Assembly: GCA_035544215.1 (NCBI GenBank)
Contig: DATKHY010000003.1
Location: 444,501-508,500 of the forward strand
From: Candidatus Binatia bacterium
GTDB lineage: Bacteria > Vulcanimicrobiota > Vulcanimicrobiia > Vulcanimicrobiales > Vulcanimicrobiaceae
Length of the DNA stretch: 64,000 nucleotides
Direction: 5' to 3'
Shown: positions 45,758 to 51,761 of the stretch, in pieces
Layout of the letters: each line of letters opens with the position of its first letter
Numbering within the stretch: the stretch's first letter is position 1
Translations under genes and position numbers: made by a program
The notes under the pieces: generated by a model
What the model was told of the DNA's origin: nothing
The model's input: the letters and a program-made list of their open reading frames with translations, nothing else
Databases searched by the model: none

Positions 45758-45993
45758 GATTTGCCGACGGGATGGAAGAAGTCAGCATAAAGGTCCGCGA
45801 GAGCGGGCCGTATCTCGTCCGGGGCAGAGTGATCGTCACGGACTGCGACGGGAATCGTTACGCCGTCGAAGGCGATAACTTCGTGCTCTGCCGCTGCGGC
45901 GGCTCGCACACAAAACCGTTTTGCGACGGGTCGCATCGCGAGAACGGCTTTTGCGCTACCGAGCGCGCGCCGCTCGTTAACGAGGACGCGTAA
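45754..45993 (+). CDS. CDGSH iron-sulfur domain protein
   Basis: 79 residues from GTG 45754. The C-terminal part is the short CDGSH motif that binds a 2Fe-2S cluster by three Cys and one His: Cys46, Cys48, Cys57 and His61 in LCRCGGSHTKPFCDGSH. The first 40 residues form a small beta domain (VRGRVIVTDCDGNRYAVEG). Such mini-proteins carry electrons or deliver clusters. Co-translation with hmgA (TAATG, 1-base overlap) may suggest a redox or iron-supply role for the iron dioxygenases, which is an inference. ATG 45772 is an alternative start. Confidence 0.9.
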   Translation: MRFADGMEEVSIKVRESGPYLVRGRVIVTDCDGNRYAVEGDNFVLCRCGGSHTKPFCDGSHRENGFCATERAPLVNEDA

Positions 45994-47162
45994 TGCCGTC
46001 CTACGTGCGCGCCGGCTCCGTGCCGCACAAGCGGCACATCCAGTTTCGCCGCCCCGACGGCGGACTGTATGCTGAGGAGCTCTTCTCCACGAAGGGCTTC
46101 GAGAGCGTCTACTCGTTGCTCTACCACCTACGGCCGCCCACGGCGACGCTCGACGTTCGGCCGTGGAGTCGTCCCGAGCGCCGCTTAGTTGCCAACGAGC
46201 CGCTACGCAACCGCCACCTGAAGACGCAGTCGCTGCGTCTCAGCGGAACCGATCCGATCGAATCGCGCACGCCGCTGCTGGGCAACGACGACGTCGTGAT
46301 CTCCGTCGCGCAGGCGGAGGCGCCGATGGAGTATTTCTACCGCAACACCGGGGGAGACGAGCTGCTCTTCGTCCACCGCGGGTTGGGCGTGATCGAGACG
46401 CAACTCGGGGAGCTCGCGTATCGCGACCACGATTACCTCGTTATCCCGACCGGAACGACCTATCGCGTCACGCCGTCGAAGCCGACGCGGATGCTGGTTT
46501 ACGAATGCGCCGGCGCGGTGACGATCCCGCGCAAGTATCGCAACGACTTCGGCCAGCTCGAGGAGCACGCGCCGTACTACGAGCGCGATTTTAGAGTCCC
46601 CGTGCTCAAAGCCCCGACTGCCGAGCAGGGCGAATACGAGGTGCGCGTCCGGAGTGGCGGGCGCAGCGCGATCTACGTCGTTCAGAATCACCCGTGCGAC
46701 GTCGTGGGATGGGACGGCTATTGCTATCCATATGCGTTCAACCTCGAGGAGTTCGCGCCGATCACCGGCAAGCTGCATCAGCCACCGCCGGCGCACGCGA
46801 CGTTCGATGCCCCCGGCGCCGCGTTCTGCGCCTTCGTGCCGCGCCTCTTCGACTACCACCCGCTCGCGATTCCCGTGCCGTACAACCACTCGAGCGTCGA
46901 CTGCGACGAAGTGCTGTACTACGTGAGCGGTGACTTCATGAGCCGCCGCGGCGTCGACCAGGGCTCGATCACGCTCCACGCTGCGGGCGCGCCGCATGGT
47001 CCACAACCGGGCGCGGTCGAGCAGAGCCTCGGCAAGACGGCGACCGACGAGATCGCGGTGATGATCGATACGTTCAAGCCATTGCAACTCGCCGAAGCGG
47101 CGCTCGAATGCGAGGATCCGCAGTACTTCCGTTCGTGGATCGAGCGGCCGGCGCCGGTTTAG
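45993..47162 (+). CDS. hmgA: Homogentisate 1,2-dioxygenase
   Basis: An Fe(II) dioxygenase that opens the homogentisate ring to maleylacetoacetate. The 389 residues form the cupin-like fold with GTTYRVTPSKPTRMLVYECAG, the NHPCDVVGWDGYCYPYAFNLEEFAPITGKLHQPPPAHATF block, and the metal-binding segments YNHSSVDCDEVLYYVSGDF and LHAAGAPHGPQPG. It is shorter than the eukaryotic type (about 445) but matches the shorter bacterial group. fahA is convergent, 1 base away, and hppD lies 2.2 kb further, completing the pathway around it. Confidence 0.95.
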   Translation: MPSYVRAGSVPHKRHIQFRRPDGGLYAEELFSTKGFESVYSLLYHLRPPTATLDVRPWSRPERRLVANEPLRNRHLKTQSLRLSGTDPIESRTPLLGNDDVVISVAQAEAPMEYFYRNTGGDELLFVHRGLGVIETQLGELAYRDHDYLVIPTGTTYRVTPSKPTRMLVYECAGAVTIPRKYRNDFGQLEEHAPYYERDFRVPVLKAPTAEQGEYEVRVRSGGRSAIYVVQNHPCDVVGWDGYCYPYAFNLEEFAPITGKLHQPPPAHATFDAPGAAFCAFVPRLFDYHPLAIPVPYNHSSVDCDEVLYYVSGDFMSRRGVDQGSITLHAAGAPHGPQPGAVEQSLGKTATDEIAVMIDTFKPLQLAEAALECEDPQYFRSWIERPAPV

Positions 47163-47163
47163 A

Positions 47164-48459
47164 TTAGCTGGGCGCGGCCTCGATGCGCCCGCGCGCTTCG
47201 CCGAAGCCGATGCGGCGCGCGTTCGGCCTCTCGCACCATCCGCGCAGGATGACCTCGTCGCCGTCTTCCAGGAAGCCGCGCATCTCGCCGCCGCGGAGCT
47301 GCAGCGGACGTTCGCCGTTCCAGGTGAGCTCGATCAGGCTGCCTTGTGTGCCGGGAGCCGATCCGCTGATCGTCCCGGAGGCGAAGAGATCGCCCGGGCG
47401 CGTGACCGCTCCGTTAGCCGTCGCGTGCGCGAGCTGCTGCGCGACATTCCAATACATGTCGCGGAACGTCGTCTGCGAGATCCGCTCCGGCGCCGCGCCG
47501 CGCTCGCGCATCTGTAGCGTCTGCAGCTCGATCGCAAGCGTGATCGCATAGGCCCACGCGTCACCGGTGCGCAAGTAGTGTAGCGGCTGCGGATCTTGGC
47601 GCGGACCTTCGACGCGAAACGGCTCGAGCGCGTCAAGCGTGACGATCCACGGCGAGATCGTCGTCGCGAACGATTTTCCGAGAAACGGTCCGAGCGGCTG
47701 ATACTCCCAGGCCTGAATGTCGCGCGCGCTCCAATCGTTGACCAGCACCAGCCCGAAGATGTGCTCGGATGCATCCGCGACGGAAATGGGCTCGCCGAGC
47801 CGATTCCCCGGCCCGGTGACGAAGCCCATCTCGAGCTCGATGTCGAGCCGGCGGCTCGCGTCGAACTCGGGCGCCGGCGCCGTCGCGAGCTTGCGCTGGC
47901 CGCGCGGACGGCGCACGGGCGTGCCGTCGACGACGATCGTCGCGGAACGGCCGTGATAGCCTACCGGAACCCACCTCCAGTTGGGCAGCAGCGCGTCGGC
48001 GTCGGGCCGAAACATCCGGCCGAGATTTGTCGCGTGTTCGATCGACGAGTAGAAGTCGACGTAATCCCCGACGTCCATCGGAAGGTGCATCGTCACGTCG
48101 TCGCGCGCGCGGACGAATCTGTCGAGGTTGTCCTCGCGCAGCCGCGGATCGCCGTCTCCGCGCAACAGCCCGGAGAGGCGCTGGCGCAGCGCCGTCCAGA
48201 GCGTGCGCCCCGCGGCCAGCAGCGGGTTCAGCAACGGCGCCTGTAGCAGCTCCGGCTCGCAGCAGTCATCTACGTACCCTGCCTGGGCGAGCTCGTGCAG
48301 GTCGAGGACGCTATCGCCGATCGCGACGCCGATGCGCGGCAGCCGTCCGCGCGCGGAAAACACGCCGAACGGCAAATTTTGAATCGGGAAGTCGCTGCCT
48401 GCCGGAACGGGCAGCCACGATTCGAGGCGCGCGTCGGTCGTGTCCGACGGCGCAATCAT
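47164..48459 (-). CDS. fahA: Fumarylacetoacetase
   Basis: It splits fumarylacetoacetate into fumarate and acetoacetate, the last step of tyrosine breakdown. It has 431 residues from ATG 48459 (4-base overlap with the upstream unknown gene). Diagnostic segments are DFPIQNLPFGVFS, VGDYVDFYSSIEHATNLGRMFRP, WRWVPVGYHGRSATIVVDGTPVRRPRGQ, the metal site LDIELEMGFV, and NDWSARDIQAWEYQPLGPFLGKSF. All are intact. It is convergent with hmgA and divergent, through the unknown gene, from hppD. Confidence 0.96.
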   Translation of the reverse strand: MIAPSDTTDARLESWLPVPAGSDFPIQNLPFGVFSARGRLPRIGVAIGDSVLDLHELAQAGYVDDCCEPELLQAPLLNPLLAAGRTLWTALRQRLSGLLRGDGDPRLREDNLDRFVRARDDVTMHLPMDVGDYVDFYSSIEHATNLGRMFRPDADALLPNWRWVPVGYHGRSATIVVDGTPVRRPRGQRKLATAPAPEFDASRRLDIELEMGFVTGPGNRLGEPISVADASEHIFGLVLVNDWSARDIQAWEYQPLGPFLGKSFATTISPWIVTLDALEPFRVEGPRQDPQPLHYLRTGDAWAYAITLAIELQTLQMRERGAAPERISQTTFRDMYWNVAQQLAHATANGAVTRPGDLFASGTISGSAPGTQGSLIELTWNGERPLQLRGGEMRGFLEDGDEVILRGWCERPNARRIGFGEARGRIEAAPS

Positions 48460-49346
48460 CGCACCGACAATATTCCGAGCGCGGACAGGTCGTCGATCGG
48501 CTCGGAGAAGCTGCAGCTGCCGTAGGCGACGAAGGCGGTGCGCCGAGCCTGCGTGAGCTCTTCGATGCCGATGCGCTCGCCGCGCCACGCGAACGAATCG
48601 TCATCGAACCGAAAGGCGGCTGGATCTTCCTCCGCGACGATGCGCCGCAGCGCGTTCGAGTCGACGCGCGGCGCGAGCGCGGTCGCGGCGAGCAGATTCA
48701 GGAAGCCGTGCATCGCGAAGCCACCCGCGGCGTCGAGTCGGCGTACCGGGTGGTGCAATCCGGCAGTGGCCTTGAAGGGGACGCGCGCGTTGTTTGCGGC
48801 GAGAATGAAGTCAGCGACCCCTTCGACGCTGGGGAAAGCCTCGCTGGTTATCCCACCGCAGCGCAGCTTCGCACCGAGACCGGCGCGCGCGGCGGCCGCC
48901 ATCGTTTGCGCAAGACACTGTGGCGAGTGCGCGGCGCTTGGAATCTCGACGAACGCGGCGAGTCCGGTTGCGTGGCTGGCTTCCAGACGGCGGCTGAACG
49001 CATCGATCGCGTCGGGCAACGTTTCGCCTTGCGCCCAAAATCTCGGCGGGACTTCGAGCGCGGCGATTCCGCCGGCGCGTCCGCGCATCGCGGCTACCTC
49101 GTCGAGCTGCTCGAGGCCGCCGTCCAAGACGATGGAGAGCGGGGCGTCACTCGACCACGTCGCCAGTGCCGTCGCCGGAAGGATGAACCGCCCTAGCATC
49201 CAGGCGTGCGGTCCGGCGCGCGCCGCCGCGTACTCGGCCTGCGCGGTGGAAACGGAGAGCTGCGCGGGAGGGAAGAGCCCGGCGTAATCGATCAGCGCGT
49301 GTAGCGCCGCGCGCACGGAGGGCCGCAGCACCGTCGACGTGGTCAT
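48456..49346 (-). CDS. Unknown protein of the homogentisate cluster, TIM-barrel-like
   Basis: 296 residues from ATG 49346, and I do not recognise the family. The order of short hydrophobic strands ending in polar or glycine residues (LSIVLDGG, GIAALEVP, LAAFVEIP, GLGAKLRCGG, VPFKATAGLHHPVR) suggests an alpha/beta barrel. Conserved-looking Lys, Arg and His sit at the strand ends (KLRCGG, FKATAGLHH). A longer start at TTG/ATG further upstream would cross the hppD control region. It is co-translated with fahA (4-base overlap). The glutathione-dependent maleylacetoacetate isomerase is absent from the cluster, so this gene is a candidate for that step (speculative). Confidence 0.7.
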   Translation of the reverse strand: MTTSTVLRPSVRAALHALIDYAGLFPPAQLSVSTAQAEYAAARAGPHAWMLGRFILPATALATWSSDAPLSIVLDGGLEQLDEVAAMRGRAGGIAALEVPPRFWAQGETLPDAIDAFSRRLEASHATGLAAFVEIPSAAHSPQCLAQTMAAAARAGLGAKLRCGGITSEAFPSVEGVADFILAANNARVPFKATAGLHHPVRRLDAAGGFAMHGFLNLLAATALAPRVDSNALRRIVAEEDPAAFRFDDDSFAWRGERIGIEELTQARRTAFVAYGSCSFSEPIDDLSALGILSVR

Positions 49347-49398: not shown

Positions 49399-50514
49399 AT
49401 GAGCACCGCCGCCGAAGCCCGCAGCAATCCGCTGGCACAAATCGACTGGGACTACGTCGAGTTCTACGTAGGCAACGCGAAGCAAGCAGCACATTACTAC
49501 ATGTCGGCGTTCGGCTTCGATCAGATCGCTTACGCCGGCCCGGAGACGGGCGTGCGGGGCCGCGTGAGCTACCTCTTGGAACAGAACAAAGTCCGGTTCG
49601 TGTTGACGTCCAGCCTGGTGCCGGACGACGAAATCGCGCGCCACGTGATGCTCCACGGCGACGGCATCAAGGACGTCGCGATCTTGGTCGAAGACGCCAC
49701 AGCGGCGTTCGAGATGGCGGTGCGCGGAGGCGCGCGTGTGATCGCGGGGCCGATGGTCTTGGAGGACGCGCAAGGCAGGATCGTCAAGGCGACGATCGCG
49801 ACCTACGGCGACACCGTGCACTCATTCATCCAGCGCGACGGCTACGCCGGAATCTTCGCGCCGGGCTTCGTCGAGGCGCGCAAGACGATCCGGCACGCCG
49901 CCAAGCCCGGGCTGCAGTTCATCGATCACTGCGTCGGAAACGTGGGCTGGGGCGAGATGGACGCGTGGGGCGACTTCTACGCGCGGGTGTTCGGCTTCTC
50001 CCAGCTGGTCTCGTTCGACGACAAGGATATTTCGACCGAATATACCGCGCTGCGCTCGAAGGTGATGACCGATCCGCGGCACCGCGTCAAGTTCCCGATC
50101 AACGAGCCGGCGCAGGGCAAGAAGAAATCTCAGATCGAGGAGTATCTCGAGTTCTATCGGGGCGCGGGCGTTCAGCACATGGCGATTCGGACGGACGACA
50201 TCGCAACGACCATTCGGGCGCTCAAAGAGAACGGCGTGGAGTTCCTCGACACGCCGGATTCATACTACGAGATGCTCGCGGACCGCGTGGGCAAGATCGA
50301 CGAGGCGCTCGAGACGCTGCGCGAACTGCGCATCCTGGTCGACCGGGACGACATGGGGTATATGCTGCAGATATTCACGAAGCCGCTCCAGGACCGCCCG
50401 ACGCTGTTCTTCGAGATCATCCAGCGCAAGGGCAGCCTCTCGTTCGGCAAGGGGAACTTCAAGGCGCTGTTCGTCTCCATCGAGCGCGAACAGGAAAAGC
50501 GGGGCACTCTTTAA
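49399..50514 (+). CDS. hppD: 4-Hydroxyphenylpyruvate dioxygenase
   Basis: It converts 4-hydroxyphenylpyruvate to homogentisate with Fe(II) and O2. It has 371 residues from ATG 49399. A GTG at 49339 in frame would overlap the start of the divergent unknown gene, so it is less likely. The two vicinal-oxygen-chelate halves carry the iron ligands His177 (FIDHCVGNV), His260 (GVQHMAIRTDDI) and Glu339 (LFFEIIQRKG). MGYMLQIFTKPLQDRPTLFFE is typical of true HPPD rather than hydroxymandelate synthase. The next gene starts on its stop codon (TAATG). Confidence 0.96.
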   Translation: MSTAAEARSNPLAQIDWDYVEFYVGNAKQAAHYYMSAFGFDQIAYAGPETGVRGRVSYLLEQNKVRFVLTSSLVPDDEIARHVMLHGDGIKDVAILVEDATAAFEMAVRGGARVIAGPMVLEDAQGRIVKATIATYGDTVHSFIQRDGYAGIFAPGFVEARKTIRHAAKPGLQFIDHCVGNVGWGEMDAWGDFYARVFGFSQLVSFDDKDISTEYTALRSKVMTDPRHRVKFPINEPAQGKKKSQIEEYLEFYRGAGVQHMAIRTDDIATTIRALKENGVEFLDTPDSYYEMLADRVGKIDEALETLRELRILVDRDDMGYMLQIFTKPLQDRPTLFFEIIQRKGSLSFGKGNFKALFVSIEREQEKRGTL

Positions 50515-51761
50515 TGTTACTGATGCGCTCGAAACTCGGAGACTGGTACAGGCGCAATCGCGAGCGCTCGGCGACGCTGTTTGCCTTGATCGACGACGAC
50601 GCGTTCTACGACCGGCCGATTCCCCTGCGTCATCCGTTCGCGTTCTACGAAGGGCACATCCCCGCGTTCAGCTTCAGCACACTCTGCGACCGCGCGCTCG
50701 GTGAGCCCTCGATCGATTCGGCGCTGGAGAAGCTATTCGAGCGCGGCATCGACCCGTCGTCCGCCGACGACGCGCGGCGCCACGATCGCGCGGACTGGCC
50801 CTCGCGCGCGGCGGTGCGGGCGTTCGCCGCGCAGTGCGACCAGCACGTGGAACGCGCGCTCGAGTTGGCGCGCATCGACGATCCTGTGGTGCCGAGCCTA
50901 GTACGCGGCCAGGCGGCGTACACGATCCTCGAGCACGAGCCGATGCACCACGAGACGCTAATGTACATCGTCCATCAGCTGGCCTACGACCGGAAGCGGC
51001 GCATTGTGGGACGGCACGAGGACCACGCGCTCCCCCTCGGTCGGTTCGTGCGGGTAGAGGCGGGGACGGCGACGCTGGGCGCGGAGCCGGACGAGATCGC
51101 TTTCGGCTGGGATAACGAGTTTCGCAGAACCTTAGCGCCGGTCGCGGCGTTCGACATCGCCGAGTACCCGGTGACGAACGGCGACTGGCTGCGCTTCGTC
51201 GCCGACGGCGGTCCCATTCCGCAGTTCTGGAGGGAACGCGACGGTGAGTGGCTGCTGCGCGGCGTCTTCGAGGAGATCGCGCTGCCGCGCTCGTGGCCGG
51301 TGTACGTGTCGCACGATCAGGCCGAGGCCTATGCGAAGTGGACCGGAATGCGCCTGCCGAGCGAGGCCGAGTATCACCGCGCAGCGTTCGGGACGCCGAG
51401 CGGCGAGGAGCGCCCGTTCCCATGGGGCGACGAGCGGCCCACGCCGGCGCACGGCAACTTCGACTTCGAGCGCTTCGATCCGGAGCCCGTCGACGCGCAT
51501 CCGCGCGGCACGAGCGCGTGGGGCGTCGCGGACCTAGTCGGCAACGGGTGGGAGTGGACCTCGACGCCGTTCGCGCCGTTCCCTGGGTTCGAACCGATGG
51601 CATCCTACCCGCGATACTCCGCCGACTTCTTCGACGGAAAGCACTACGTTATGAAGGGCGCCTCGCCGGTGACGGCGGCAGAGCTCATCCGGCGCTCGCT
51701 CCGGAACTGGTTCTACGGCGACTATCCGTACATGTACGCGAAGTTCCGCTGCATCGCCTGA
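50514..51761 (+). CDS. EgtB/SenA/OvoA-like non-haem iron enzyme (DinB-like + FGE-sulfatase domains)
   Basis: 415 residues. The N-terminal DinB-type four-helix domain supplies three His that match the iron ligands of EgtB: His48 (YEGHIPAF) and His141/His145 in LEHEPMHHETLMY. The C-terminal half is a formylglycine-generating-enzyme-type fold (FDIAEYPVTNGDWLRFVADGG, HDQAEAYAKWTGMRLPSEAEYHRAAFG, DLVGNGWEWTSTPFAPFPGF, RNWFYGD). Members couple O2 to C-S (or C-Se) bond formation on histidine betaine or histidine. No EgtD-like methyltransferase is nearby, and the gene sits between hppD and a transporter lipoprotein. The actual substrate may therefore differ. Confidence 0.8.
   Translation: MLLMRSKLGDWYRRNRERSATLFALIDDDAFYDRPIPLRHPFAFYEGHIPAFSFSTLCDRALGEPSIDSALEKLFERGIDPSSADDARRHDRADWPSRAAVRAFAAQCDQHVERALELARIDDPVVPSLVRGQAAYTILEHEPMHHETLMYIVHQLAYDRKRRIVGRHEDHALPLGRFVRVEAGTATLGAEPDEIAFGWDNEFRRTLAPVAAFDIAEYPVTNGDWLRFVADGGPIPQFWRERDGEWLLRGVFEEIALPRSWPVYVSHDQAEAYAKWTGMRLPSEAEYHRAAFGTPSGEERPFPWGDERPTPAHGNFDFERFDPEPVDAHPRGTSAWGVADLVGNGWEWTSTPFAPFPGFEPMASYPRYSADFFDGKHYVMKGASPVTAAELIRRSLRNWFYGDYPYMYAKFRCIA

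Follow-up and report, generated by a model that had tools for sequence, protein, structure and literature searches.

The gene at 48456..49346 on the minus strand of the 64,000-nucleotide stretch of DNA analysed here (the window) probably encodes a glutathione-independent maleylacetoacetate isomerase, a non-orthologous stand-in for the GST-type enzyme MaiA between HmgA and FahA. We use UNK as shorthand for this unknown gene and for its protein family, and we infer its activity from the constancy of its genomic partner, the absence of MaiA and the predicted architecture of the protein. Phenylalanine and tyrosine breakdown by way of homogentisate is textbook biochemistry, and to our knowledge the middle step of this route is known solely as a glutathione enzyme. 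UNK would probably supply the missing isomerase and so allow microbes devoid of glutathione to complete tyrosine breakdown. This gap has been noticed before, as no maleylacetoacetate isomerase gene was identifiable in B. anthracis, where what becomes of maleylacetoacetate was described as unclear (PMC4457819), and the accessible portion of a proteomics report on R. globerulus presents HmgA and HmgB and names no isomerase as detected (PMC11889516). The open-access literature, itself an incomplete set, yielded no description of a glutathione-independent maleylacetoacetate isomerase or of the UNK family. We know of no family of this fold that carries out maleylacetoacetate isomerisation; the activity class itself is known.

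The organisation of the locus places UNK within a homogentisate cluster. The open reading frame starts with ATG, encodes a 296-residue protein of an unnamed family, and is flanked by fahA (47164..48459, minus strand) and by the divergently oriented hppD (49399..50514, plus strand), with an hmgA homologue nearby (45993..47162, plus strand). A longer mechanical reading frame extending to 49427 is unneeded, since relatives share the same start site. The original prediction had placed hmgA, fahA and hppD together here, and family matches confirm all three: the fumarylacetoacetase reaches 522 bits against a cut-off of 375 (TIGR01266), the 4-hydroxyphenylpyruvate dioxygenase reaches 455 bits against 277 (TIGR01263), and the homogentisate 1,2-dioxygenase is real and very divergent, matching HgmA_N at 1.3e-12 and falling far under the TIGR01015 cut-off (66.7 bits against 510.75). 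Relatives of this divergent HmgA adjoin UNK in Bacilli, Cyanobacteria and archaea, and annotation tools may miss the clade. The stop codon of UNK overlaps the start codon of fahA in an ATGA (48456..48459, minus strand), an arrangement for which translational coupling is expected and which makes the proposed co-translation of the two genes, read from 48459 to 48456, a fair description. Beyond hppD lies a gene (50526..51758, plus strand) for a protein with DinB_2 and FGE-sulfatase domains that falls between OvoA, EgtB and SenA and under the cut-offs of all three; in many UNK loci a similar gene stays close to hppD, and the product is possibly a thiol or selenoneine-type synthase with a new specificity.

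The pairing of UNK with fahA extends far beyond the window. In the window's phylum (Eremiobacterota by contig title), 37 of the 40 loci have fahA directly downstream of UNK on the same strand and within 300 nt (median gap 18 nt), and the same arrangement recurs in 67 of 80 loci sampled more widely over many phyla, where the median gap is 30 nt. UNK is present in 92 of the 149 genomes of the phylum, a count returned identically by single-sequence and profile searches, and 91 of these 92 also carry FahA (one a truncated match). The corresponding two-by-two table (91 with both, 1 with UNK only, 8 with FahA only, 49 with neither) gives a Fisher p of about 1e-29 when shared descent is ignored. Among 399 genomes of Bacilli, UNK was found in 13 and FahA over its cut-off in 14, and all 13 UNK genomes were FahA-positive (13/0/1/385; Fisher p about 2e-23, again ignoring shared descent). 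Three weak profile matches in Bacilli, at E about 1e-4 (G347, G358 and G379), coincide with metallophosphoesterase genes and were set aside as noise. A stronger argument than these p values is that the pairing recurs in distant phyla. FahA was found in 49 of 50 named carrier genomes, 46 of them over the cut-off, with G193 as the exception; for 11 loci in which BLAST detected no fahA of the window's type, the genomes searched have FahA elsewhere, G193 excepted. The neighbourhood analysis, which looked for consistent pairing of UNK with fahA in genomes that lack maiA, is thus strongly positive over many phyla. Such tight coupling would also suit a non-catalytic partner of FahA, be it a chaperone, a stabiliser or a regulator, but the FahA of Pseudomonadota functions without UNK and the best-conserved residues of the family are charged or nucleophilic and sit on or just past barrel strands, where active sites are usually found, so that we regard this role as very improbable.

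The second line of evidence is the consistent absence of MaiA where UNK is found. The cluster had been described as lacking MaiA, and a homologue elsewhere in the genome would have spoken against a replacement; the TIGR01262 search returned no match in the locus or anywhere in the window's genome (3.23 Mb, 97% complete), even at E<=1. MaiA was likewise over the cut-off in 0 of the 149 genomes of the phylum and in 0 of the 50 named UNK carriers, in a search that detects true MaiA over the cut-off in one named control genome; weak GST-type matches were seen in Cyanobacteria and a few others. A tblastn search with true MaiA found none adjoining UNK in any locus searched. Glutathione synthetase (TIGR01380) was also over the cut-off in none of the 149 genomes, with none in the window's genome, in a search for which control genomes give matches. 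A glutathione-dependent isomerase would therefore be without its cofactor in this phylum. Cyanobacteria do make glutathione, so an absence of this thiol does not fully explain the missing MaiA. Together, the pairing with fahA and the absence of MaiA lend support to UNK as the natural candidate for the isomerase step.

Annotated plasmid records show the two genes exchanging places between lineages. On the plasmids of Pseudomonadota that were examined (Sphingobium, Acinetobacter, Paracoccus, Rhizobium, Serratia, Roseomonas) maiA adjoins fahA, and on those of Actinomycetota and Bacillota (Priestia, Rhodococcus, Streptomyces, Pseudonocardia, Tsukamurella) UNK adjoins fahA; an unannotated Nocardia plasmid record held no UNK in the stretch examined. 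It was also considered whether UNK is linked solely to the divergent type of HmgA, an idea ruled out by five loci that combine UNK and fahA with the common type (L059 and four others, L108, L125, L137 and L147; Acidobacteriota by title), their HmgA being 60-64% identical to that of Sphingobium. Because UNK also occurs beside the common Pseudomonadota-type HmgA, what it replaces is MaiA and not HmgA. UNK is best classed as a probable non-orthologous replacement, and it belongs neither to MaiA nor to deoxyribose-phosphate aldolase (DERA), the family whose fold it resembles.

A different reading of the same pairing is that UNK is some other FahA-coupled barrel enzyme, for example a class I aldolase or a lyase, cleaving maleylacetoacetate or clearing a dead-end adduct, with isomerisation proceeding non-enzymatically or FahA taking the cis isomer. 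The DERA fold, with both lysines in place by strand order and motif, would suit such an enzyme. A maleylacetoacetate hydrolase route has been reported in Bacillus (Crawford 1976, as cited in PMC4457819), and a glutathione-dependent non-enzymatic bypass in mice (Fernandez-Canon 2002). FahA is moreover found in genomes with neither isomerase: eight in the phylum have FahA but no UNK and no clear MaiA (G036, G089, G090, G091, G094, G095, G117 and G139), as does G590, alone among the Bacilli. Weak GST-type matches occur in four of these eight phylum genomes as against 7 of the 92 that carry UNK (p 0.005). Since G089 is 99% complete, FahA may need no dedicated isomerase, may accept the cis isomer, or may use a third enzyme; in the few FahA genomes with neither gene, FahA might cleave the cis isomer directly, or a non-enzymatic step might intervene. 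A lyase acting ahead of FahA would, however, deprive FahA of its substrate, yet FahA is the constant partner; UNK occupies the position of maiA in other phyla; and the non-enzymatic bypass requires glutathione, the synthetase for which is missing in the window's phylum. We therefore consider an aldolase or lyase function unlikely and retain the isomerase as the preferred assignment for UNK. In G089 and G036 FahA (L072:2408-3697 and L071:4646-5944, respectively) stands with HmgA and HppD and with neither UNK nor MaiA, and in both an exonuclease-like reading frame lies beside fahA; in G590 no isomerase-like gene was recognised adjoining fahA (L217:6141-7454).

Sequence libraries offer no family to which UNK could be assigned. 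Neither Pfam nor NCBIfam (June 2026 release) contains a family that matches the window's protein, and single-sequence searches of the PDB returned noise only. Across 81 family members there was no Pfam or NCBIfam match beyond chance, none to the GST or MaiA families and none to a DinB or MDMPI_N domain. The sole PDB match of a profile search, a 4-alpha-glucanotransferase at E 0.036, was taken as chance. The protein had been described as barrel-like, and the AlphaFold model built from an 81-sequence alignment is indeed an eight-stranded alpha/beta barrel with a mean pLDDT of 95.4; the Alteribacillus protein, modelled from 56 sequences that overlap the first set, gives an alpha/beta barrel at a mean pLDDT of 95.0. 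The nearest structural neighbours are DERA enzymes, with scores (VIA Z) of 15.2 for 1n7k_A (204 aligned residues, 2.9 A) and 16.7 for 1ktn_B (231 aligned, 3.3 A), and the next non-DERA folds reach 12.9 and 12.7 for the two models. Foldseek agrees on the DERA fold (best E 3.2e-5), and the nearest structures include 7p75 and 7p76, engineered DERA variants with Schiff-base intermediates that act as catalysts of Michael additions. A comparison of the UNK family with 13 DERA sequences in hhalign found no relation (probability 0.9%), and the DeoC profile matched no UNK protein in Pfam or NCBIfam, so the likeness to DERA is claimed by fold alone. The barrel is thus of DERA type in a protein that is not DERA by sequence, and the predicted structure does not identify it as a different known enzyme. 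The suggestion that UNK is simply the genome's own DERA was rejected: the window's genome has no DERA, yet 22 of 29 tested genomes have one over the cut-off. DERA was also looked for in viral contigs, and none was found.

Conservation within the family delineates a putative active site in this barrel. Eight residues are invariant in the 81-member alignment (E98, E134, K160, R162, K192, H198, N217 and C278), and all but N217 are noted on or just past the barrel strands. The wide scan for the family used three peptide patterns, one of which spans the cysteine, and residue conservation was therefore rechecked in sets gathered by similarity only; all invariant residues are kept in the Bacilli and plasmid members found in this way. 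C278 is conserved in 81 of 81 sequences in one alignment (A2) and in 40 of 41 in another (A1). K160 lies in the motif AKLRCGG on strand 6 and K192 in FKATAGLHH on strand 7, and they are placed against the Schiff-base lysine (FIKTSTG) and second lysine (GFKPAGG) of DERA by strand order and motif rather than by superposition. The strand 8 turn, YGSCSF, resembles FGASSL of DERA, with C278 where DERA has serine. A degenerate copy of UNK beside an intact fahA (L070:8962-9765, in G076) has lost C278, H198, H199 and Gly196; either this copy has decayed or the cysteine is not essential.

These features suggest a possible chemistry. In maleylacetoacetate a ketone is conjugated with a cis double bond, and in MaiA glutathione adds, the bond turns and glutathione is removed. 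In UNK, K160 or K192 could form an imine with a keto group of maleylacetoacetate and thereby render the cis double bond electrophilic, upon which C278, located where strand 8 ends, would add to the activated double bond; rotation about the resulting C-C bond and departure of the C278 thiol would then yield the trans isomer. The carboxylates might be bound by R162, H198/H199 and R268, and the enzyme's own cysteine would do the job of glutathione in MaiA. We put forward only tentatively, and with distinctly less assurance than the isomerase assignment itself, that an unrecognised bacterial and archaeal family isomerises maleylacetoacetate free of any thiol cofactor by means of a class I aldolase-type barrel, a lysine imine and a strand 8 cysteine. 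The alternative is that UNK is a maleylacetoacetate isomerase requiring a free low-molecular-weight thiol such as bacillithiol, mycothiol, ergothioneine or coenzyme A as nucleophile. This would be in keeping with the thiol cofactor used by the known maleylacetoacetate isomerases and by most maleylpyruvate isomerases, and the EgtB/OvoA/SenA-like gene at 50526..51758 has counterparts that stay close to hppD in many family loci; but that gene does not track UNK beyond the window's own group, the family occurs in lineages expected to differ in their thiols (Cyanobacteria, Actinomycetota, Bacilli, archaea), which argues against one specific thiol, and the near-universal retention of C278 points to a nucleophile within the protein. 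A requirement for a free thiol thus appears improbable.

Comparison with characterised enzymes further defines what is distinctive about the proposed cofactor-free isomerase. With DERA (TIGR00126, a class I aldolase) UNK shares the fold and, by strand order and motif, lysines on strands 6 and 7 that are each followed by x-x-x-G and a G-x-[SC]-S turn at strand 8; it differs in having cysteine for serine, in a long insertion separating strand 7 from strand 8 and in the lack of profile similarity, and many UNK carriers possess a true DERA besides. With MaiA/GSTZ1 (TIGR01262; HmgC of Pseudomonas) it shares the place in the pathway and the position beside fahA, whereas MaiA is a glutathione-using GST-type protein of two domains (thioredoxin-like and helical) and UNK a single predicted alpha/beta barrel of unrelated sequence; the two never occur together in our samples. 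The DinB/MDMPI maleylpyruvate isomerases, which use mycothiol or cysteine, are likewise a non-GST answer to a closely related cis-trans isomerisation, but they are helical bundles of the gentisate pathway, unlike the barrel of the homogentisate pathway described here. Addition of an enzyme cysteine to a cis double bond would be shared with maleate cis-trans isomerase, a member of the Asp/Glu racemase superfamily that has a different fold and no sequence match to UNK. If the proposed chemistry is correct, the aldolase fold gains a natural imine-plus-cysteine isomerase, and UNK would be the natural equivalent of the DERA variants engineered in the laboratory for Michael additions.

The breadth of the family gives the assignment its wider relevance. 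With each species represented by a single genome, a scan located UNK at no fewer than 559 loci, in many bacterial phyla and in archaea. A sample of 80 loci covers Eremiobacterota, Krumholzibacteriia, Actinomycetota, Planctomycetota, Cyanobacteria (Nostoc, Oculatella, Moorena), Rhodothermia, Salinivenus, Ignavibacteria, Chloroflexi, Acidobacteriota, Gemmatimonadota, Verrucomicrobia, Bacillota (Alteribacillus, Aneurinibacillus, Paenibacillus) and, among the archaea, Marine Group III, Poseidoniia and Methanoregulaceae; it includes metagenome bins, for which single taxon assignments may err, and cultured strains, for which they are sure. UNK thereby provides one candidate isomerase for Eremiobacterota, Bacillota, Actinomycetota, Cyanobacteria, Planctomycetota, Acidobacteriota, Chloroflexi and archaea. 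The annotated plasmid records examined file it as 'hypothetical protein', and pathway tools should consequently score the genomes that carry it as incomplete for this route. At least one genome holds more than a single member of the family: in G029 the locus L059 contains a second, paralogous UNK with its own fahA and a common Pseudomonadota-type HmgA (60% identity).
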